Source: Chloroflexota bacterium
GTDB lineage: Bacteria; Chloroflexota; Anaerolineae; Anaerolineales; Villigracilaceae
NCBI GenBank assembly: GCA_024434165.1
Contig: QMIW01000006.1
Location: forward strand, 1-64,000
Reading direction: 5' to 3'
Length of the DNA: 64,000 nucleotides
Position numbers and translations under genes: made by a program. Within the stretch, counting starts at the first letter, position 1. Every line of letters starts with the position of its first letter. Shown here one piece after another: positions 6,254 through 58,953 of this stretch. The notes beneath the pieces are model-generated. The model had not been told where the DNA came from. It did not search any database and saw only the letters and a list, made by a program, of their open reading frames with translations.

Positions 6254-8146
6254 ATGAAGAAATTCTTTTCAAGCGCCCTTGCGCGCGGCTTGTTCTGGCA
6301 GTTCGTCGGCATCCTGGCAGGGGCGGGACTGGTCACAGGTATTCGTGTGTTGATGGGCTTAAATGCAACCGATACCTTCTTCTTCACCGAACCTGCCTGG
6401 GTGGTGGGCGGGTTGACAGGCGCCCTGTTCTTCCTTGTCGGCTCCGGTGTGACCAGCGACTGGATCAAGTGGGCGCGCGGAATGGATACCCCCGAACACC
6501 ACGAGGAACATCATACCGGCTGGGAGAAGTACATCAATCTTTCCCTCGATCACAAAGTGATCGGCATCCAATACACGCTCATCGCGCTCGTGTTGATCAG
6601 CGTCGGCGGTCTGTTTGCGTTGATCTTCCGCACCGAGCTTGCCGCCTCGGAACTTCAATTCCTGACAACCGACATGAAGCTGTTCGGTCAGAACGGACCG
6701 CAGTTGTACAACACGCTGATGTCCCTGCACGGCATGATCATGATCGTTTCCATCCTGCTGGGCATTTCCGGCATCATCAACTATGTCGTTCCGCTCCTGC
6801 TCGGCGCACAGGATATGGCGTTTCCGCGCTTGAACGCATTCTCCTACTGGATCGCCGTGCCCGCGGCGGTGCTGCTGCTGATGAGTCTGGTGCTCGGCGG
6901 TTTCGATACCGGCTGGACGGGCTACCCGCCGCTCTCGGCGCGCGCGCCCGTCGGAATGCAGATGTTCTTCCTCGGCGTGTTTGTGGCGGGGTGGTCGTCC
7001 ATTCTGGGCGCGTTGAACGTGATTGCCACCGTGCTGCGCATGCGCGCCAAAGGCATGACCGCCATGCGGATGCCTATCTTCGTTTGGGCGGCAATCGCCA
7101 CTTCCTTGATCGCCCTGACCGCCACACAGTTGATCGGTCTCTCCTTTCAATTGGTCATGTTCCAGCGTTTGCTTGGCATGGGTTTCTTCGACCCCGCCAA
7201 GGGCGGCAACCCCGTGCTCTTCCAGCACCTGTTCTGGTTCTACTCCCACCCCGCGGTGTATGTGTTCGTCCTGCCCGGTCTGGGCGTGATTTCTGAATTG
7301 CTGCCCGTCTTCGTGCGCAAGCCGCTCTTCGGCTACCGCTGGATTGCGATGTCTTCGCTGGGCATTGCGCTGGTCGGTTTCGTGGTTTGGGCGCATCACA
7401 TGTTCACCTCGGGCATGAACGAGTACCTGCGTGTTCCCTTCATGTACAGCACCCTGCTGGTGGCGGTTCCCACCGGCGTGAAATTCTTCTCCTGGGTTGC
7501 CACGATCTGGAAGGGAAAAATCTCGACCCCGACCCCAATGCTCTTCGTGCTTGGCGCGATTGTGGTCTTCCTCATGGGCGGTCTTTCCGGTCCGCCGAAC
7601 GCAACCGTTTCCACCGACCTGCACCTGCATGACACCTACTTCATCGTCGGGCACTTCCACGATACGATCTTCGGCGGCTTCGTCTTCCCGTTCTTTGCCG
7701 CCATCTATTACTGGTATCCCAAAGCGACGGGCCGCAAGATGAACGAAACGCTCGGCAAACTGCACTTCTGGCTGATGACGCCTTCGTTCTTCGTGCTGAC
7801 CTTTGGCATGATGTATGTCGGCTTGATCGGCATGCGCCGCCGCATTGCGGACTACGACCCTGCGCTCGGCATTGACGTTTATCATCTCATCATGACGATA
7901 GCCGGTTACCTGATCGCCGTTTCCGTGCTCATCTTCCTGTACAACTTCTTCAACAGCCTCAAGAATGGCGAAAAAGCCGAAGGCAACGTGTGGGATTCGC
8001 GCTCGCCGGAGTGGCAGGTTCCCTCCCCGATGCCCGCGCACAACTACGACCAGCCCTTCGAGGTGGTTGGCGAGCCTTACGATTACGGCTTGAAAGATTC
8101 GGCGTACGTCCGCTTTGCCGGGACCGCCAAAAGCACACATAAATAA
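6254..8146 (+). CDS. coxA: Cytochrome c oxidase subunit I, A2-type heme-copper oxidase
   Basis: This 630-residue subunit carries the heme a / heme a3-CuB centre. Visible landmarks are a heme His in 'SLHGMIM', the CuB His-Tyr pair in 'FYSHPAVYV' (about H332/Y336), the CuB His pair in 'WAHHMF', and the heme a3 and a ligands in 'VGHFHDTIFGG'. The D-channel Asp is kept in 'DMAFPRLN' and the K-channel Lys in 'PTGVKFF'. Helix VI has Tyr-Ser before the His and no Glu in 'HPAVY', the signature of the A2 subfamily. About 80 extra N-terminal residues with two hydrophobic segments precede the canonical first helix. It follows coxB by 20 nt. Confidence 0.97.
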   Translation: MKKFFSSALARGLFWQFVGILAGAGLVTGIRVLMGLNATDTFFFTEPAWVVGGLTGALFFLVGSGVTSDWIKWARGMDTPEHHEEHHTGWEKYINLSLDHKVIGIQYTLIALVLISVGGLFALIFRTELAASELQFLTTDMKLFGQNGPQLYNTLMSLHGMIMIVSILLGISGIINYVVPLLLGAQDMAFPRLNAFSYWIAVPAAVLLLMSLVLGGFDTGWTGYPPLSARAPVGMQMFFLGVFVAGWSSILGALNVIATVLRMRAKGMTAMRMPIFVWAAIATSLIALTATQLIGLSFQLVMFQRLLGMGFFDPAKGGNPVLFQHLFWFYSHPAVYVFVLPGLGVISELLPVFVRKPLFGYRWIAMSSLGIALVGFVVWAHHMFTSGMNEYLRVPFMYSTLLVAVPTGVKFFSWVATIWKGKISTPTPMLFVLGAIVVFLMGGLSGPPNATVSTDLHLHDTYFIVGHFHDTIFGGFVFPFFAAIYYWYPKATGRKMNETLGKLHFWLMTPSFFVLTFGMMYVGLIGMRRRIADYDPALGIDVYHLIMTIAGYLIAVSVLIFLYNFFNSLKNGEKAEGNVWDSRSPEWQVPSPMPAHNYDQPFEVVGEPYDYGLKDSAYVRFAGTAKSTHK

Positions 8147-9607: not shown

Positions 9608-10099
9608 ATGAATTTCACCCTGAAACGCATCCTTGTTTCGTTTGTCCTGGGGCTTGCGCTTGGCGCGCTGACCACCGAACTGGCGTATTTTTTCCTCAAA
9701 AGGGAGAACCGCGAACCCGCCGTCGTCGAGATTCTCATCCCGCCCGGCACGGCGGAGAAAATTCGGCGCGGCGAAGGCGAACAGCTCGACCTCCCCGATA
9801 CCATGCAGTTCGTGGTGGGCGACACAATCAAGGTGATCAACGAAGACAGCGAGAACCACAACCTCGGTCCGCTTTGGATTCCCGCCGGTTCCTCCGCCAG
9901 CCTGAAACTGGACTCGGAAGAGAACCTTGCCTACGAATGTTCCTTCCAGGCGGATAACTATTTCGGTCTCACCGTGCGGGAGCCGGTCACCTGGCGCACC
10001 CGTCTCTTCGGCATCTTCCTGGCGGGGTTTCCGCTTTCGATGATTTTCGTCATCTACAGCGGGCTGATTCCCGGCGGAAGGAAGAAGGAAACAGCATGA
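9608..10099 (+). CDS. Two-helix membrane protein with cupredoxin-like domain in the oxidase operon
   Basis: The 163-residue product has a hydrophobic helix at about 8-30, an exposed middle domain and a second helix at about 132-152, followed by a basic tail. The middle domain runs like a cupredoxin: 'FVVGDTIKVINEDSENHN', 'IPAGSS', then a Tyr-Glu-Cys-Ser-Phe element. H84 and C111 are candidate copper ligands. The usual second His and Met after the Cys are not obvious, so copper binding is uncertain. Its place between SCO and SURF1, overlapping the latter by four bases, argues for a role in oxidase assembly or electron/copper transfer. I do not recognise a named family. Confidence 0.7.
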   Translation: MNFTLKRILVSFVLGLALGALTTELAYFFLKRENREPAVVEILIPPGTAEKIRRGEGEQLDLPDTMQFVVGDTIKVINEDSENHNLGPLWIPAGSSASLKLDSEENLAYECSFQADNYFGLTVREPVTWRTRLFGIFLAGFPLSMIFVIYSGLIPGGRKKETA

Positions 10100-10833
10100 C
10101 CGTTTTGCGCCGCATGGTTTCGCCGAAGTGGGCGCTCACCACCCTGCTGGCGCTGGCTGGCATGGCGGTTTGCATCCGCCTCGGCATCTGGCAGTTGGAT
10201 CGACTCGACCAGCGCCGCGCCTTCAACGCGCAGGTGGAGACCATGCGCGCCATGCCGCCCCTGAATTTGAACGAGGAAATTCCCGCAGACATCGCTTCGA
10301 TGGAATGGCGGGCGGTGACGGTCACCGGGGAATATGACTTTGAGAATCAAGTTGCCCTGCGGAATCAAGTCCACGATGGGGCGGTCGGATATCACCTCAT
10401 CACACCGCTTCAATTCGACGGGACGGCTGTTCTGGTGAACCGCGGCTGGGTGCCCGCTGAAAGCGGCTCCGCGCCGGACGAATGGCGTGTTTACGATGAA
10501 GCGGGCGCGGTCACGGTGTCGGGGCAGATCCGGCTTGGGCAGGGCAAACCAGCCTTCGGCGGAGTCGCCGATGCGCTGCCGATGGACGGGAGCAGACTCG
10601 CAGTGTGGAACAACCTCGATGTGGAGATGATATCCACCCAGCTGCCTTATCCCATTCTGGATGTGTTCGTTCAGCCGAACGCCGGGGCGGGGGACGACGT
10701 TCCGCCGATACCCTACCAGCCGGCAATCGAATTGACGGAAGGCCCGCATTTCGGGTATGCTTTGCAGTGGTTTACCTTTGCGGCGATTTTGTTTTTCGGC
10801 TATCCATTCTATTTGCGAAAGCAGGACGACTGA
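10096..10833 (+). CDS. SURF1-family cytochrome oxidase assembly protein
   Basis: This 245-residue protein has the SURF1 layout: an N-terminal membrane helix (about 12-32) followed by 'LGIWQLDRLDQRRAFN', a soluble extracytoplasmic domain with 'VTVTGEYDFENQVALRN' and 'VNRGWVPA', and a C-terminal helix after 'GPHFGYALQWF'. SURF1 helps insert heme a into subunit I. The start overlaps the previous stop as ATGA, indicating translational coupling. Full length for the family. Confidence 0.93.
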   Translation: MTVLRRMVSPKWALTTLLALAGMAVCIRLGIWQLDRLDQRRAFNAQVETMRAMPPLNLNEEIPADIASMEWRAVTVTGEYDFENQVALRNQVHDGAVGYHLITPLQFDGTAVLVNRGWVPAESGSAPDEWRVYDEAGAVTVSGQIRLGQGKPAFGGVADALPMDGSRLAVWNNLDVEMISTQLPYPILDVFVQPNAGAGDDVPPIPYQPAIELTEGPHFGYALQWFTFAAILFFGYPFYLRKQDD

Positions 10834-45596: not shown

Positions 45597-45633
45597 GGAT
45601 TCGTTTCATGATGCGTACCGTGCCGCGCTGCCA

Positions 45634-45675
45634 AAAATCGTAAATCCCAAATCCCAAATCGAAAATCGTAAATTG
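45634..45675 (+). repeat. Heptanucleotide array before the CDP-alcohol phosphatidyltransferase gene
   Basis: Six back-to-back 7-bp units of the form NAAATNN (aaaatcg, taaatcc, caaatcc, caaatcg, aaaatcg, taaattg) end exactly at the base before the ATG. The array replaces any normal ribosome site and is far more A+T-rich than its surroundings. Confidence 0.8.
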
Positions 45676-54488: not shown

Positions 54489-55895
54489 ATGTCACAACGG
54501 AAACGGACTCCGCGGTATATCGTTTTGATTCTGTCGGGGGTACTGGCGGCGTCGTTTCTTTTTTCAGGTTTCTCCAGCCTGCAAAAAGCGGAGGCGGCTG
54601 AAAAAAACGGCGAGCATCTTGCGGCATCCGAGTCGTATGCACGTGCGGCGCAGCGGCTCTTTTGGCGGGACGATCTGTGGGAGCGGGCGGGCATTTCTGC
54701 CGCGCAGGGCGGCGATTATCAAAAGGCGTTCGCTTATTTTGCGAAGCCGCCGGTCCTGACCGAGCAAGGCTGGTTGTGGCTGGCAACTTCGTATTATCAA
54801 AGCGGGGATATCGAATCCGCGATTGCGGCTGCCAGGGAGGGTCTGAATTCGTACGATTCAGCATCCCTGTTTCGTTTGCTTGCCTTCGCCTACCGCAGCC
54901 AAAAGGATTGGACGGCTGAAAAAGATGCGCTCGAAAACCAACTCCGGTTGAACGACGGCGACGCCTACGCTCATTACCGGCTTGGGTTGTTGTCCATGCT
55001 GGATGCGCCCGAGCGCGCCCTCGCGGAATTGACCCGCGCCTCTTCTCTTAATCCCGAAGTTGATTCCGCCGCCCAGACCTTGATCTCCGCCTTGAATGTT
55101 TCCGACACCCAGCCGGATGCTTCCGGTAAATCCGTGACGGTTGGCCGCGCCCTCGGCTTGGTGCAGGAATGGGAACTTGCCCTCCTCGCCTTCCAGCGAG
55201 CCGTGGAAGCGGACGCGGAAAATGCCGAGGCGTGGGCATGGCTTGGGGAGGCGAAACAGCAACTCGGTCAGGATGGACGCGCGGAACTCGACCGGGCGTT
55301 ATCGCTCGACCGGACCTCGGTCAATGTGCGTGCGCTGCGCGGTCTTTACTGGAGTCGGCTTGGGAAGTACGAGCAGATGCTTGCGGAATACCTGCTCGCG
55401 GCGGAGTATGAACCGGAGAATCCCCGCTGGCGCGCGAGCATCGGCGAGGCGTATGCCCGGCTGGGAGATGCGGCATCTGCGCTGGCGGCGTATCAACGCG
55501 CGGTGGAACTTGCCCCGAACGACGCCGGGTATCTGCGTCTGCTGGCGGTGTTCTGCGCGGAGAATGGGGTGTATGTGGAAGAGATCGGTTTGCCTGCCGC
55601 ACAGCAAGCCGCTGCGCTTGCGCCGAATGACCCGCTGATGATGGACGCGCTGGGGCTGTCGTATTTATCGTCCGGGCGGTATGCCAGCGCGGAACAAATC
55701 CTGCTGCAGGCTGTCCGCCTTGCCCCGGAGCATTTCCCCGCCCATATTCACCTCGCCTTGACGTATCTCGCGCAGGGGAATCGCTCCGCCGCTTTCAACA
55801 CGTTGACCTTCGTGCGCGATGCGGATGCGGGCGGCGTGTATGCCGAAACTGCAAAGCAATTGCTTCAAAAATATTTCCCACAGCATTCGCCATGA
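54489..55895 (+). CDS. Membrane-anchored TPR-repeat protein
   Basis: This 468-residue protein has an N-terminal membrane helix (about 10-28), then tandem tetratricopeptide repeats to the end. Clear examples are 'AHYRLGLLSMLDAPERALAE', 'AEAWAWLGEAKQQLGQDGRA' and 'PRWRASIGEAYARLGDAASA'. The repeats probably form a scaffold on the outer face of the membrane. Function not deducible. Start: ATG after TAGAAT; a TTG nine codons earlier is in frame but lies upstream of the -10 box. The next gene begins 13 bases after its stop. Confidence 0.85.
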   Translation: MSQRKRTPRYIVLILSGVLAASFLFSGFSSLQKAEAAEKNGEHLAASESYARAAQRLFWRDDLWERAGISAAQGGDYQKAFAYFAKPPVLTEQGWLWLATSYYQSGDIESAIAAAREGLNSYDSASLFRLLAFAYRSQKDWTAEKDALENQLRLNDGDAYAHYRLGLLSMLDAPERALAELTRASSLNPEVDSAAQTLISALNVSDTQPDASGKSVTVGRALGLVQEWELALLAFQRAVEADAENAEAWAWLGEAKQQLGQDGRAELDRALSLDRTSVNVRALRGLYWSRLGKYEQMLAEYLLAAEYEPENPRWRASIGEAYARLGDAASALAAYQRAVELAPNDAGYLRLLAVFCAENGVYVEEIGLPAAQQAAALAPNDPLMMDALGLSYLSSGRYASAEQILLQAVRLAPEHFPAHIHLALTYLAQGNRSAAFNTLTFVRDADAGGVYAETAKQLLQKYFPQHSP

Positions 55896-55908
55896 TAAAA
55901 TCACGCCC

Positions 55909-56556
55909 ATGTATCGCTTTTCCCTTCTCTTGTTTGTTTCTTTATTGTTAAGTGCATGTGCCGGACTTCCCATCGCCACGCAGGCTCCGGCTCAGGCGCA
56001 GCCCTCCGGGACGGTCCTTTTTCAGGATGACTTTGCCCAGCCCACCACCGGCTGGGACCGTTTCATGGTCAACGAAGGCGTTATGGATTATGACTCGGGC
56101 GGGTATCGCATCCTCGTCAACGACCTGGAGACCAACTTCTGGGCGACTCCGCGCCGAAACTTCAAAGACGTGCGCATCGAAGTGGATACGGGTAAACTGG
56201 CGGGACCCGATGAAAACCGCATCGGCGTCCTCTGCCGGTACAGCGGAGCGAATTATTATTTCTTTATCATCACCAGCGACGGCTACTACGGTGTGGGCTT
56301 GTTCAAGGACAATGCGGCAACTCTGCTTGGGCAAAGCGAATTGCAGCCTTCTTCGAATATCAACAAGGGGCTTGCCGTCAATCACCTGCGCGCGGACTGC
56401 GTAGGCGATACGCTCACGTTTTACATAAACGGTTTCCAGGCGGCGCAGGTAAAGGATGCCGCGCTGACCTCCGGCGATGTGGGCATGCTGGCTGGCACGT
56501 TCGGCGCACCCGGCGTGGATATCGTCTTTGATAATTTTGTCGTGCTGCAACCGTGA
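55909..56556 (+). CDS. Lipoprotein with jelly-roll (LamG/DUF1080-like) domain
   Basis: This 215-residue protein has signal peptide 'MYRFSLLLFVSLLLSACAG' with lipobox 'LLSAC', a short spacer, and a single beta-jelly-roll of about 180 residues ('LFQDDFAQPTTGWDRFMVNE', 'RIGVLCRYSGANYYFFIITS', 'LTFYINGFQAAQV', 'GTFGAPGVDIVFDNFVVLQP'). The pattern is that of concanavalin-like carbohydrate-binding proteins common in Chloroflexota. TAAAAT ends seven bases before the ATG, so it may have its own leaderless transcript in addition to reading through from the TPR gene. Confidence 0.85.
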   Translation: MYRFSLLLFVSLLLSACAGLPIATQAPAQAQPSGTVLFQDDFAQPTTGWDRFMVNEGVMDYDSGGYRILVNDLETNFWATPRRNFKDVRIEVDTGKLAGPDENRIGVLCRYSGANYYFFIITSDGYYGVGLFKDNAATLLGQSELQPSSNINKGLAVNHLRADCVGDTLTFYINGFQAAQVKDAALTSGDVGMLAGTFGAPGVDIVFDNFVVLQP

Positions 56557-56561
56557 AGAGC

Positions 56562-56650
56562 AGAGAATAGTGAATAGAGAGCAGTGAATAGAGAATAGTG
56601 AATAGTTAGTGGGTAGAGTGTGGAGATCGGTAAACTACTCTCTACTCTCT
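56562..56650 (+). repeat. Inverted heptanucleotide array before mtaB
   Basis: Seven forward 7-bp units (56562-56610) alternate 'agagaat' and 'agtgaat' with small variations. After a 23-base spacer, three more units of the same kind lie in reverse orientation (56631-56650, on the minus strand 'agagagt', 'agagagt', 'agtttac'). The two sets can pair imperfectly into a long hairpin just upstream of the mtaB start. Confidence 0.8.
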
Positions 56651-56658
56651 TTATTTCC

Positions 56659-57933
56659 ATGAAAATCTTCCTCGATACCATCGGCTGCCGCCTCAATCAG
56701 GCGGAAATCGAAGCCATGTCCCGTCAGTTCCGTGCAGCAGGGCATGAAATCGTTGCTTCCGCCGACCACGCCGATATGGCGGTGGTCAATACCTGCGCGG
56801 TCACCACGCAGGCGGCATCCGATTCGCGCGGGAGGATTCGCAATATTGCGCGCGCAGGCGTGGGGAAAATCGTCGCCACCGGCTGTTGGACGTCCATCCA
56901 GCCGAGGGAAGCCGCCGCGCTCCCGAACGTCCGGCATGTGGTCGCCAACGACAAAAAGGATTACCTTGTGCCCGAGGTGCTGGGCTTGCCCAGGGAAACC
57001 TTCGACCTCGAGCCGATGGACCGCGTGCCCATTCCCGGCTTGCACCGCCGCACACGCGCCTTCATCAAAGTGCAGGATGGCTGTGATAACCGCTGTACGT
57101 TTTGCGTCACCACCATCGCGCGCGGCGAAGGGCGTTCGCGTCCGCTCGCGGACGTCATCAACGACATCCATGCTGCGCTGGCGGGCGATTCGAAGGAAAT
57201 TGTTTTAACCGGCGTGCACCTCGGTTCGTGGGGGCAGGAGATGAATTTCCACCTGCGCGATCTGGTCAAAGCCATTCTGCGCGAGACGGACGTCCAGCGG
57301 TTGAGATTATCCTCCCTCGAACCCTGGGATCTGGACGCCGACTTCTTCTCCCTTTGGGCAGACGCGCGCCTCATGCCTCACCTGCACCTGCCTCTGCAAT
57401 CCGGGAGCGAATCCACCCTGAAGCGGATGGCGCGCAAGACCACGCCCGACTCGTTCCGCGAACTGGTGAAAGCCGCCCGCGCCGCCATTCCCGATGCCGC
57501 CATCACGACGGACCTCATCGCCGGATTCCCCGGCGAAACCGACGACGAATTTGCGGAGACACTGGATTTCGTCCGCGAGATGCAATTCTCCGGAGGGCAC
57601 GTCTTTTCGTATTCGCCGCGTCCCGGCACCGGGGCGGCAAAGATGAAGGGGCAGGTCAGGCCCGAGGTCCGCAAGAGGCGGAATCACATCCTGCAGGAGG
57701 TGATTGGAGAGTCGGCAAAATCCTATCGAGAGAAATTCATCGGGCAGGCGATGTCCGTGCTTTGGGAATCCACCAGCGAATACGGCGAATACGGCTGGCG
57801 CATGGAAGGCTGGACGGGCAATTACCTGCGCGTGAGCGCCATTGCGCCTTCGCCGCGCTGGAACGAAATGGATGTGGTGACGCTGGAGCGGGTGGATGGG
57901 GAGAAATTGACGGGCATCATTCGGGGTGCGTAG
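56659..57933 (+). CDS. mtaB: tRNA N6-threonylcarbamoyladenosine methylthiotransferase, MtaB type
   Basis: This 424-residue radical-SAM enzyme adds a methylthio group to t6A37 of tRNA. The N-terminal UPF0004 domain has cluster cysteines C10 ('TIGCRLNQAE'), C46 ('NTCAVT') and C76 ('ATGCW'). The radical-SAM triad C142, C146 and C149 is in 'QDGCDNRCTFCVTT'. A TRAM-like C-terminal domain ends the protein. 'CRLN' and overall length favour MtaB over MiaB. The ATG follows the heptamer array directly and no ribosome site is evident. Confidence 0.92.
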   Translation: MKIFLDTIGCRLNQAEIEAMSRQFRAAGHEIVASADHADMAVVNTCAVTTQAASDSRGRIRNIARAGVGKIVATGCWTSIQPREAAALPNVRHVVANDKKDYLVPEVLGLPRETFDLEPMDRVPIPGLHRRTRAFIKVQDGCDNRCTFCVTTIARGEGRSRPLADVINDIHAALAGDSKEIVLTGVHLGSWGQEMNFHLRDLVKAILRETDVQRLRLSSLEPWDLDADFFSLWADARLMPHLHLPLQSGSESTLKRMARKTTPDSFRELVKAARAAIPDAAITTDLIAGFPGETDDEFAETLDFVREMQFSGGHVFSYSPRPGTGAAKMKGQVRPEVRKRRNHILQEVIGESAKSYREKFIGQAMSVLWESTSEYGEYGWRMEGWTGNYLRVSAIAPSPRWNEMDVVTLERVDGEKLTGIIRGA

Positions 57934-57997
57934 TCCGTAATGGGCGCGGGCAGCGCGATAATTACGAATGTCACTATTTGAAATGAGGGAGGAAATG

Positions 57998-58003
57998 TAT
58001 AAT
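57998..58003 (+). promoter_or_regulatory. -10 box for folD
   Basis: TATAAT is followed after five bases by an ATG and after 38 bases by the better-supported folD start. Transcription starting near 58009 would give a 33-nt leader carrying 'aaggag'. Confidence 0.5.
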
Positions 58004-58041
58004 TTTTTATGGCATTTTCAAACAAAAAAGGAGCGAAACCG

Positions 58042-58953
58042 ATGACCGCGCAATTGATTGACGGAACCGCCATCGCGCAAAAGGTGCGCGATGAAGTGAA
58101 GGAAAAAGTAGCCAAACGACTTGCGGAGGGAAAATCCCAGCCGGGGTTGGCAACCGTTCTGGTAGGGGACCGCATTGACTCGGCGACCTATGTGAGCATG
58201 AAGCAAAAGGCTTGCGCTGAACTGGGGATGACCTCGTTTCATCACCCCGTCCCCGCGGATATCACCCAGGAAGACCTGGAAAAACTCATCAAGGAATTGA
58301 ATGCCGACCCGAAGGTGAACGGAATCCTCGTGCAGCTGCCCCTGCCCGATCATCTGGATGAAGAGCGCGTCCTGCAGCTGATCAGCATCGAGAAGGACGT
58401 GGATGGGTTCTCGCCGATCAATCTCGGTCGTTTGGCGCAGAAGGGACGCGAACCGTTGTTCGTGCCTTGTACGCCCTACGGCTGTATCTACCTGCTCAAG
58501 GAAGCCGGGGTGAAGATTGCGGGCGCGAATGCGGTGGTCCTGGGCCGCTCGAATATTGTCGGCATGCCTGCGGCTTTGCTGCTCATCAAGGAAAACGCCA
58601 CCGTAACCGTCGTCCACTCGAAAACGAAGGACATCCCGGCTGTGCTGCGCAACGCGGACATCATCATCGCCGCCATCGGGCGCGCAGAAATGGTTCGCGG
58701 CGATTGGATCAAACCCGGCGCGGCGGTCATTGACGTGGGCATCAACGGCATTCCGAAACTGAACCCCGACGGCACGCCGATGATCAGCCAGAAGACCGGC
58801 AAACCGATGCAGAAACTCGTAGGCGACGTCAACTTCGAAGAGGCGAAAGAGGTGGCGGGATTCATCACCCCCGTCCCCGGCGGTGTGGGTCCGATGACGA
58901 TTGCGATGCTGATGGCGAACACGCTCCGCGCGGCGGAAATTCAGGATAAATAA
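58042..58953 (+). CDS. folD: Bifunctional methylenetetrahydrofolate dehydrogenase/cyclohydrolase
   Basis: This 303-residue enzyme interconverts methylene-, methenyl- and 10-formyl-tetrahydrofolate. The catalytic Lys54 is in 'ATYVSMKQKACAE'. Other landmarks are 'VNGILVQLPLPDHLDE', 'KDVDGFSPINLGRL', 'PCTPYGCIYLL', the NADP-binding 'GRSNIVGMPAALLL' and 'PVPGGVGPMTIAMLMANT'. The ATG chosen has 'aaggag' eight bases upstream and matches the usual N-terminus. An ATG 11 codons earlier is in frame but would add a Lys-rich tail encoded by the ribosome site itself. Confidence 0.95.
   Translation: MTAQLIDGTAIAQKVRDEVKEKVAKRLAEGKSQPGLATVLVGDRIDSATYVSMKQKACAELGMTSFHHPVPADITQEDLEKLIKELNADPKVNGILVQLPLPDHLDEERVLQLISIEKDVDGFSPINLGRLAQKGREPLFVPCTPYGCIYLLKEAGVKIAGANAVVLGRSNIVGMPAALLLIKENATVTVVHSKTKDIPAVLRNADIIIAAIGRAEMVRGDWIKPGAAVIDVGINGIPKLNPDGTPMISQKTGKPMQKLVGDVNFEEAKEVAGFITPVPGGVGPMTIAMLMANTLRAAEIQDK

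Follow-up and report, generated by a model that had tools for sequence, protein, structure and literature searches.

A convergent heptamer array upstream of mtaB and dispersed heptamer arrays in a Chloroflexota genus

The gap between a putative lipoprotein gene and mtaB

The window, the 64,000-nucleotide stretch of DNA analysed here, carries two co-oriented genes separated by a gap of 102 nt, with the stop codon of a putative lipoprotein gene ending at 56556 and the ATG of mtaB at 56659 (Table 1). The downstream gene had been named mtaB in a sequence-only reading, and the name is borne out by a match to the NCBIfam equivalog TIGR01579, at 361.7 bits against a cut-off of 357.05; the same ATG is the mtaB start in most orthologues, and folD follows downstream by Pfam and NCBIfam. 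The product of the upstream gene is putatively a lipoprotein, judged by its N-terminus; Pfam and NCBIfam searches of 55906-56553 returned no family, and the tail of the gene is common to syntenic orthologues.

Table 1. Coordinates of features in the window
Feature	Position	Strand	Basis and remarks
Putative lipoprotein gene	55909..56556	+	upstream neighbour, tail ...FDNFVVLQP*, chosen start; ORF from 55819
Forward purine-rich heptamer arm	56557..56609	+	~7 units YAGWGAR
Spacer	56610..56630	+	sequence reading, comparison with CFX11 and CFX3
Inverted pyrimidine-rich arm	56631..56650	-	2-3 units; ends eight bases 5' of the mtaB ATG
mtaB, tRNA t6A methylthiotransferase	56659..57933	+	ORF list, Pfam, NCBIfam
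Second heptamer array, AAATCGT/AAATCCC words	45632..45673	+	TRF, lag scan; different word class

The inverted heptamers that had been described 5' of mtaB are indeed present, approximately seven YAGWGAR units facing approximately three in the opposite orientation, with the forward arm beginning slightly earlier, at 56557, than first described. The window contains 7 matches to three consecutive YAGWGAR units (at most three mismatches), where shuffles predict 0.07; of the seven, six lie on the forward strand within 56554-56609 and one on the reverse strand at 56631-56651, with 3 mismatches. The inner-side complement to the forward arm scores 11 against a shuffle mean of 6.7, a score reached by 1 of 200 shuffles, and the end of the spacer runs into the second arm as GGTAAACTACTCTC, resembling CFX11 and CFX3. 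TRF detected periods of 7, 14 and 21 inside 56557-56606, and another array at 56635-56650. The 14-bp super-repeat of the sequence-only reading is imperfect, with 3.1 copies and 86% matches. That reading also took the array for the whole mtaB leader; the array does fill the 102-nt gap, but the gap separates co-oriented genes and is a putative 5' UTR at most. The second heptamer array of the window stands shortly 5' of an ATG, and its version in CFX11 is shorter.

A functional structured mtaB leader, whether attenuator or slippage switch, would lie where this array lies, directly 5' of the ATG, and in CFX3 and CFX11 the leader has a somewhat more stable fold than its shuffles (z -2.16 and -1.69, respectively). 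The window leader folds no better than its shuffles (z 0.45 and 0.28), a search of it against Rfam up to E 1 gave one match, to a snoRNA family (E 0.49; 19.3 bits, the threshold being 44), and no promoter- or terminator-like sites were found on the forward strand at 55700-58200. Orthologues have different inserts at this place, or their gaps measure 7-27 nt and contain hardly any insert or none. A structured RNA leader, not kept in orthologues, was rejected on these grounds, and a regulatory leader of this kind is highly improbable; the earlier suggestion of a structured 5' UTR finds no support, nor does anything peculiar to mtaB, the genome having eight class-1 arrays. We infer that the array probably has no role in the control of mtaB.

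Word classes in the genome, the family and the phylum

Word classes were counted as three consecutive units in the genome carrying the window (4.4 Mb, 98% complete; hereafter the own genome), which holds 19 matches in 8 arrays for class 1 (YAGWGAR), 155 matches for class 2 (GACVRTN) and 8 for class 3 (GTRAWTG), with 0 matches for each reversed-pattern control. A single consensus for all heptamer words, GNNANTN, was dropped on reading, as several words do not fit it. The sequence-only reading had called for such a genome-wide count and for a comparison of unit numbers, and had reserved the verdict of a chance low-complexity leader for a genome with no other such arrays and an identical unit number in all strains. 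Other arrays exist, and unit number and type at the mtaB site differ among the window, CFX11 and CFX3, so that this verdict does not apply, the comparison being one of species and not of strains.

Of 120 genomes in a family sample, 67 contain class 1, as do 8 of 101 in a phylum sample. The maximum among the 120 family-sample genomes is 253 class-1 matches, in another genome of the same genus (G108). Class 2 is present in 19 of 19 selected congeners, own genome counted, and in 28 of 301 genomes of a phylum sample (15 of 18 inside the family, 13 of 283 outside); outside the family it is strong in two genomes, G370 with 34 matches and G308 with 155 matches and 6 in its control. The distant G308, of family f66 in the same phylum, thus equals the 155 of the own genome, and the distribution is patchy. 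Within one genus, class-2 matches range from 0 or 1 up to 155. The reversed class-1 pattern also matches in 15 of the 120 family genomes (for example, 27 matches in G015 and 15 in G056), as does the reversed class-2 pattern in some phylum-sample genomes (10 in G044 and 13 in G210, for instance); these matches may be other heptamer words, and the counts beyond the own genome are therefore not pure.

A lag scan of 35 loci (642 kb) gave 11 intergenic sites at lag 7, 11 at lag 14, 5 at lag 28 and 3 at lag 21, and lags outside the multiples of 7 never gave more than 2 sites. Lag 7 also led in DNA labelled coding, with 20 sites, a count that is high partly because the ORF caller, taking the farthest start, drew leaders into ORFs. 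Class-2 arrays prefer intergenic DNA and tolerate gene interiors: 14 of 50 lie in ORF interiors (the 50 being drawn from the first 100 of 155 matches), as do 454 of 1000 stretches taken at random from the same loci.

Architecture of the arrays and their turnover at homologous sites

The arrays are dispersed, convergent and heterogeneous. We read the architecture of class 2 from 50 clusters of the own genome, drawn from the first 100 of 155 matches and picked by three strict units in a row; 35 are convergent, a GAC arm followed by a GTC arm, 0 are divergent and 15 are single-armed. In the loci of 19 congeners including the own genome, 11 of 22 class-2 clusters are convergent, 0 divergent and 11 single-armed, one of the 22 (L148) being also among the 50. 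Among 15 class-1 arms, 10 are faced by a complement on the inner side (equalled in at most 5 of 200 shuffles) and none has one on the outer side; the set counts one array twice, as L065 and L132, and omits the arm of L019, a string identical to one of L017. The mode of class-2 units per arm is 4, found in 19 forward and 18 reverse arms, of 35 each, and 16 of the 35 arm pairs keep one 7-nt phase (p 8e-6), all among the 100 of 155 matches listed. In this common phase the unit approximates GWCNATN, a pattern that reads alike on either strand; its second letter is A in the left half of the element and T in the right half. In the class-2 logo, position 5 is a purine, position 6 a pyrimidine and position 4 almost without T, letters that are partly set by the search, as the clusters were picked by the strict pattern.

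Unit order was tested on the same 50 clusters, from 100 of the 155 matches listed, and does not differ from that of shuffles. Of 225 neighbouring pairs 29 are identical (25.3 expected, sd 4.3), as are 21 of 148 pairs at a distance of two units (16.3 expected, sd 3.4), neither being a significant excess. The two arms of a pair agree at free positions no better than re-dealt arms do, whether in the best register (0.650 against 0.666) or in a fixed inner register (0.481 against 0.495); in a fixed outer register agreement is 0.466 against 0.511 (sd 0.022), about 2 sd under the null. Arm-to-arm templating and compensatory pairing were rejected for class 2 on this agreement, and copy-and-paste ancestry or recent tandem duplication was not seen, with the weak exception of two arm pairs that have 4 identical units in common against 0.4 expected. 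Unmatched arms, random order and the lack of a neighbour excess argue, for class 2, against a conserved hairpin, recent copy-and-paste and recent slippage.

These two arm pairs are among the observations that would suit a MITE- or REP-like palindrome moved by a transposase, with its inward polarity due to common descent, as are the dispersed, inverted placement in gaps and genes and the three matches to Y1_Tnp (PF01797) in the genome. Apart from the two pairs, unit orders are no more alike than shuffled ones, and the approximately 3-kb loci of the three Y1_Tnp matches contain no class-1 or class-2 heptamer pairs, so that a RAYT link finds no support as far as Y1_Tnp genes are concerned. Class 2 does not consist of near-identical copies with fixed terminal inverted repeats, as a MITE would. 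By reading, the arrays are not the single GTAG- or CGTC-tagged palindromes of REP/RAYT systems. A real MITE of the lineage looks different, one copy (G000, L251 6397-6542) having 17 matches of 88-99% identity in CFX11 and an empty site there. We regard a mobile palindrome as unlikely. Two MITE-like inserts with inverted ends were observed in L251, at 6397-6542 and 9754-9906, with empty sites in CFX11; the inverted ends of the second also occur beside a Y1_Tnp match (L258).

CFX11 (G121) is the closest relative among those examined, with an MtaB 94% identical over residues 55-410. Its alignment with the window falls into blocks that are 76-93% identical, mostly 88-92%, with their order kept; the first 4.4 kb and some further stretches do not align. 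Six class-2 elements can be aligned with a CFX11 counterpart, at an identity in ungapped columns of 0.73-1.00 (flanks 83-99%) and with 0-18 gap columns, 6-18 of them in three of the six pairs; five of the six reach 0.83-1.00, near their flanks, and the sixth (C105) 0.73. This closeness to flank identity suggests that units do not scramble fast. Two loci could not be aligned across the array, a query with C49 found no synteny in CFX11, and one class-2 array of the own genome (C114, L251:13422) is without a counterpart there, at a place that aligns uncleanly. An array 5' of a gene that we take to be nuoL has kept its length, with 96 of 107 bases identical.

Leaving out C105, the GAC core differs between orthologues at 3 of 104 positions and the other positions at 18 of 136 (Fisher p 0.005). 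Core G and C show no differences (0 of 69, or 0 of 83 with C105 counted), and the middle base differs in 3 of 35 cases (6 of 42 with C105); the five middle-base changes readable by eye are A-T swaps, which would turn the unit round in place. Selection on the core is possible given that it changes less than the rest, though the units were chosen by their GAC/GTC core in one species.

We compared mtaB leaders from 37 of 77 loci (L050-L085 and L112, the others being more distant or cut) together with the window, 38 in all, of which 34 have the same upstream gene. The 34 syntenic gaps comprise seven class-2 foldbacks and one single class-2 run, three class-1 foldbacks (the window, CFX11 and, from the complement test, CFX3), one class-3 array, one other heptamer array by reading (L076), six gaps of 7-27 nt with little or no insert, and 15 others, several with unrelated palindromes; a threshold had put L112 under 'other', though the complement test shows a class-1 foldback there. 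The leaders of L051 and L054 hold what look like class-2 remnants. The three class-1 leaders have in common a centre of GGTAAACTACTCTC and near forms and differ in unit number and type. At another place the own genome carries a GTAATTG array and CFX11 GATCAGTG/CACTGAT words; at yet another, CFX11 carries a class-1 array and the own genome an GGGAGAGG palindrome. Different word classes thus occupy one site in different species. The mtaB gaps of L062, L079 and L066 carry other palindromes (GTCATTGCGAGG..., GTAGGGGCGAGG...), words that are presumably dispersed repeats. Within mtaB itself, a linker at approximately codons 100-120 holds heptamer words of differing classes in relatives, in frame and often with unchanged length (for example L050 ~10300-10360, L077, L078, L080 and L081).

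The differing unit numbers of three species at the mtaB site are what an ordinary, neutral slippage microsatellite with an inverted duplication would leave, and congeners carry homogeneous GTAATTG runs, with approximately 12 identical units in G054, that look like slippage. Differing classes at one site would be hard to obtain in this way; in class 2, neither adjacent units nor units two apart are identical significantly more often than expected, arm length peaks at 4 units, and polarity is strict. Class 3, like the unit numbers of class 1, may well be subject to slippage; as the account of the array we consider it improbable.

Origin, role and comparison with known heptamer systems

We read the mtaB array as a product of DNA turnover and not as a switch built for mtaB. 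Our best explanation, held with moderate confidence, is that it is one copy of a dispersed, convergent repetitive DNA element, produced by turnover and tolerated in the gap. Its short arms of 7-bp units face each other, the G-strand arm first and the C-strand arm second, and it probably sits between two co-oriented genes for the reason that this place can bear an insert. Several observations count against this explanation: the conservation of the core (3 of 104 against 18 of 136), which points to selection on it, the run of identical GTAATTG units in G054, the gap columns in three of six orthologue pairs, and the identity of 0.73 for C105.

As to how such an element could arise, we tentatively and weakly favour a stuttering synthesis of heptamers onto 3' DNA ends, in which identical G-strand words would be added to both ends of a break and the two extended ends then joined. 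Synthesis of this kind would yield inward-pointing, unequal arms with their unit types in random order; it would strike genes as well as gaps, and word classes would differ from genome to genome. At the mtaB site, unit number would change by gain or loss of whole units. Counting against it, the analysis of class-2 arrays turned up neither an enzyme nor a template nor a clean empty site, and the common 7-nt phase of 16 of 35 arm pairs, among the 100 of 155 matches listed, is not predicted by the joining of two independent ends. A broader form of the idea, which we hold to be quite improbable, is that convergent heptamer arrays are written by a DNA-end activity common to bacteria of several phyla and are its scars at repaired breaks; the activity would stutter in the manner of a telomerase or a terminal transferase, with a degenerate, lineage-specific 7-nt template.

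The conserved core and common phase would find an explanation if the heptamer were the site of a DNA-binding protein, bound as two facing groups of approximately four, for instance in chromosome organisation. Selection would then keep the core letters and leave others free, as the orthologue pairs and, in letters partly set by the search, the class-2 logo suggest; arms with a mode of 4 units that need not match would be accommodated equally. A range from 0 or 1 to 155 class-2 matches in one genus would be unusual for the sites of a core protein, 14 of 50 arrays (from 100 of the 155 matches listed) lie in ORF interiors against 454 of 1000 random stretches, and the mtaB site carries differing classes across species. 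Binding sites would thus explain the core and the phase, and end synthesis the polarity, the random order and the choice of class. We treat binding sites as possible though doubtful, an estimate that overlaps with that for the best explanation, as the dispersed, convergent nature of the arrays holds under both.

Dozens of genomes are at hand here from a single genus; their copy numbers vary widely, and their arrays combine several word classes with one inward polarity. Together with the differing homologous sites this makes the origin of the arrays testable: slippage, copy-and-paste, binding sites and end synthesis predict differing unit orders, arm matching and empty sites.

Heptameric repeats were reportedly found, in 2007, to be over-represented in many bacterial genomes, and the STRR heptamers of cyanobacteria (Calothrix) stand in tandem; the likeness of the present arrays to STRR covers the tandem 7-bp form alone. 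Among the titles listed in searches of open-licence papers, none concerns heptamer arrays in Chloroflexota. Direct TAACTGA repeats have been described from Beggiatoaceae, cyanobacteria and Bacteroidetes, shortly 5' of start codons, with strain indels in 7-nt steps, strain-specific paths and mixture with other heptamers; the main genome had 169 direct sets and one indirect set (MacGregor 2015, PMC4679880). The mtaB array likewise consists of heptamers shortly 5' of a start codon, in another word, and CFX11 has a GATAACT/GATCACT word array related to TAACTGA. GTAG- or CGTC-tagged REPs are dispersed short inverted repeats, often paired and some inside genes, and Chloroflexi are named there among the phyla with GTAG repeats (Di Nocera et al. 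2013, PMC3733652). The present arrays resemble them in being dispersed short inverted repeats, often paired and some within genes; a CGTC REP, however, consists of one stem of 8-9 bp that is tagged at its end, whereas here the repeats are heptamer tandems.

The closest likeness is to Xanthomonas, for which one report describes heterogeneous G-rich heptamers, (GGGANTN)n, mostly of four units and mostly intergenic, with 7-11% overlapping ORFs at least partly and with 70 and 75 convergent pairs of close repeat sites; they are dispersed, and when two species were compared, repeats of similar length were not found at corresponding genes (Rehm et al. 2015, PMC4692102). The same report cites STRR as heptanucleotides and states that, as of 2015, heptamer repeats lacked a detailed literature (PMC4692102). 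The present arrays agree in having 7-bp units with fixed and variable positions, two convergent arms close together (15 of 50 class-2 clusters being single-armed, from 100 of the 155 matches listed) and, in class 2, approximately four units per arm, with approximately seven and three in the class-1 array of the window. The intergenic preference is found here too but is weaker, 14 of 50 arrays lying in ORF interiors by our own measure (again from 100 of the 155 matches listed). Unlike the GGGAATC repeats of Xanthomonas, YAGWGAR and GACVRTN units lack a GGG tract, and the present case differs further in its several word classes per genome, its Chloroflexota host and the different classes followed at one site over relatives. 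In these terms the window array belongs to the known convergent-heptamer kind described in 2015 from Xanthomonas, here without G-tracts and in another phylum.
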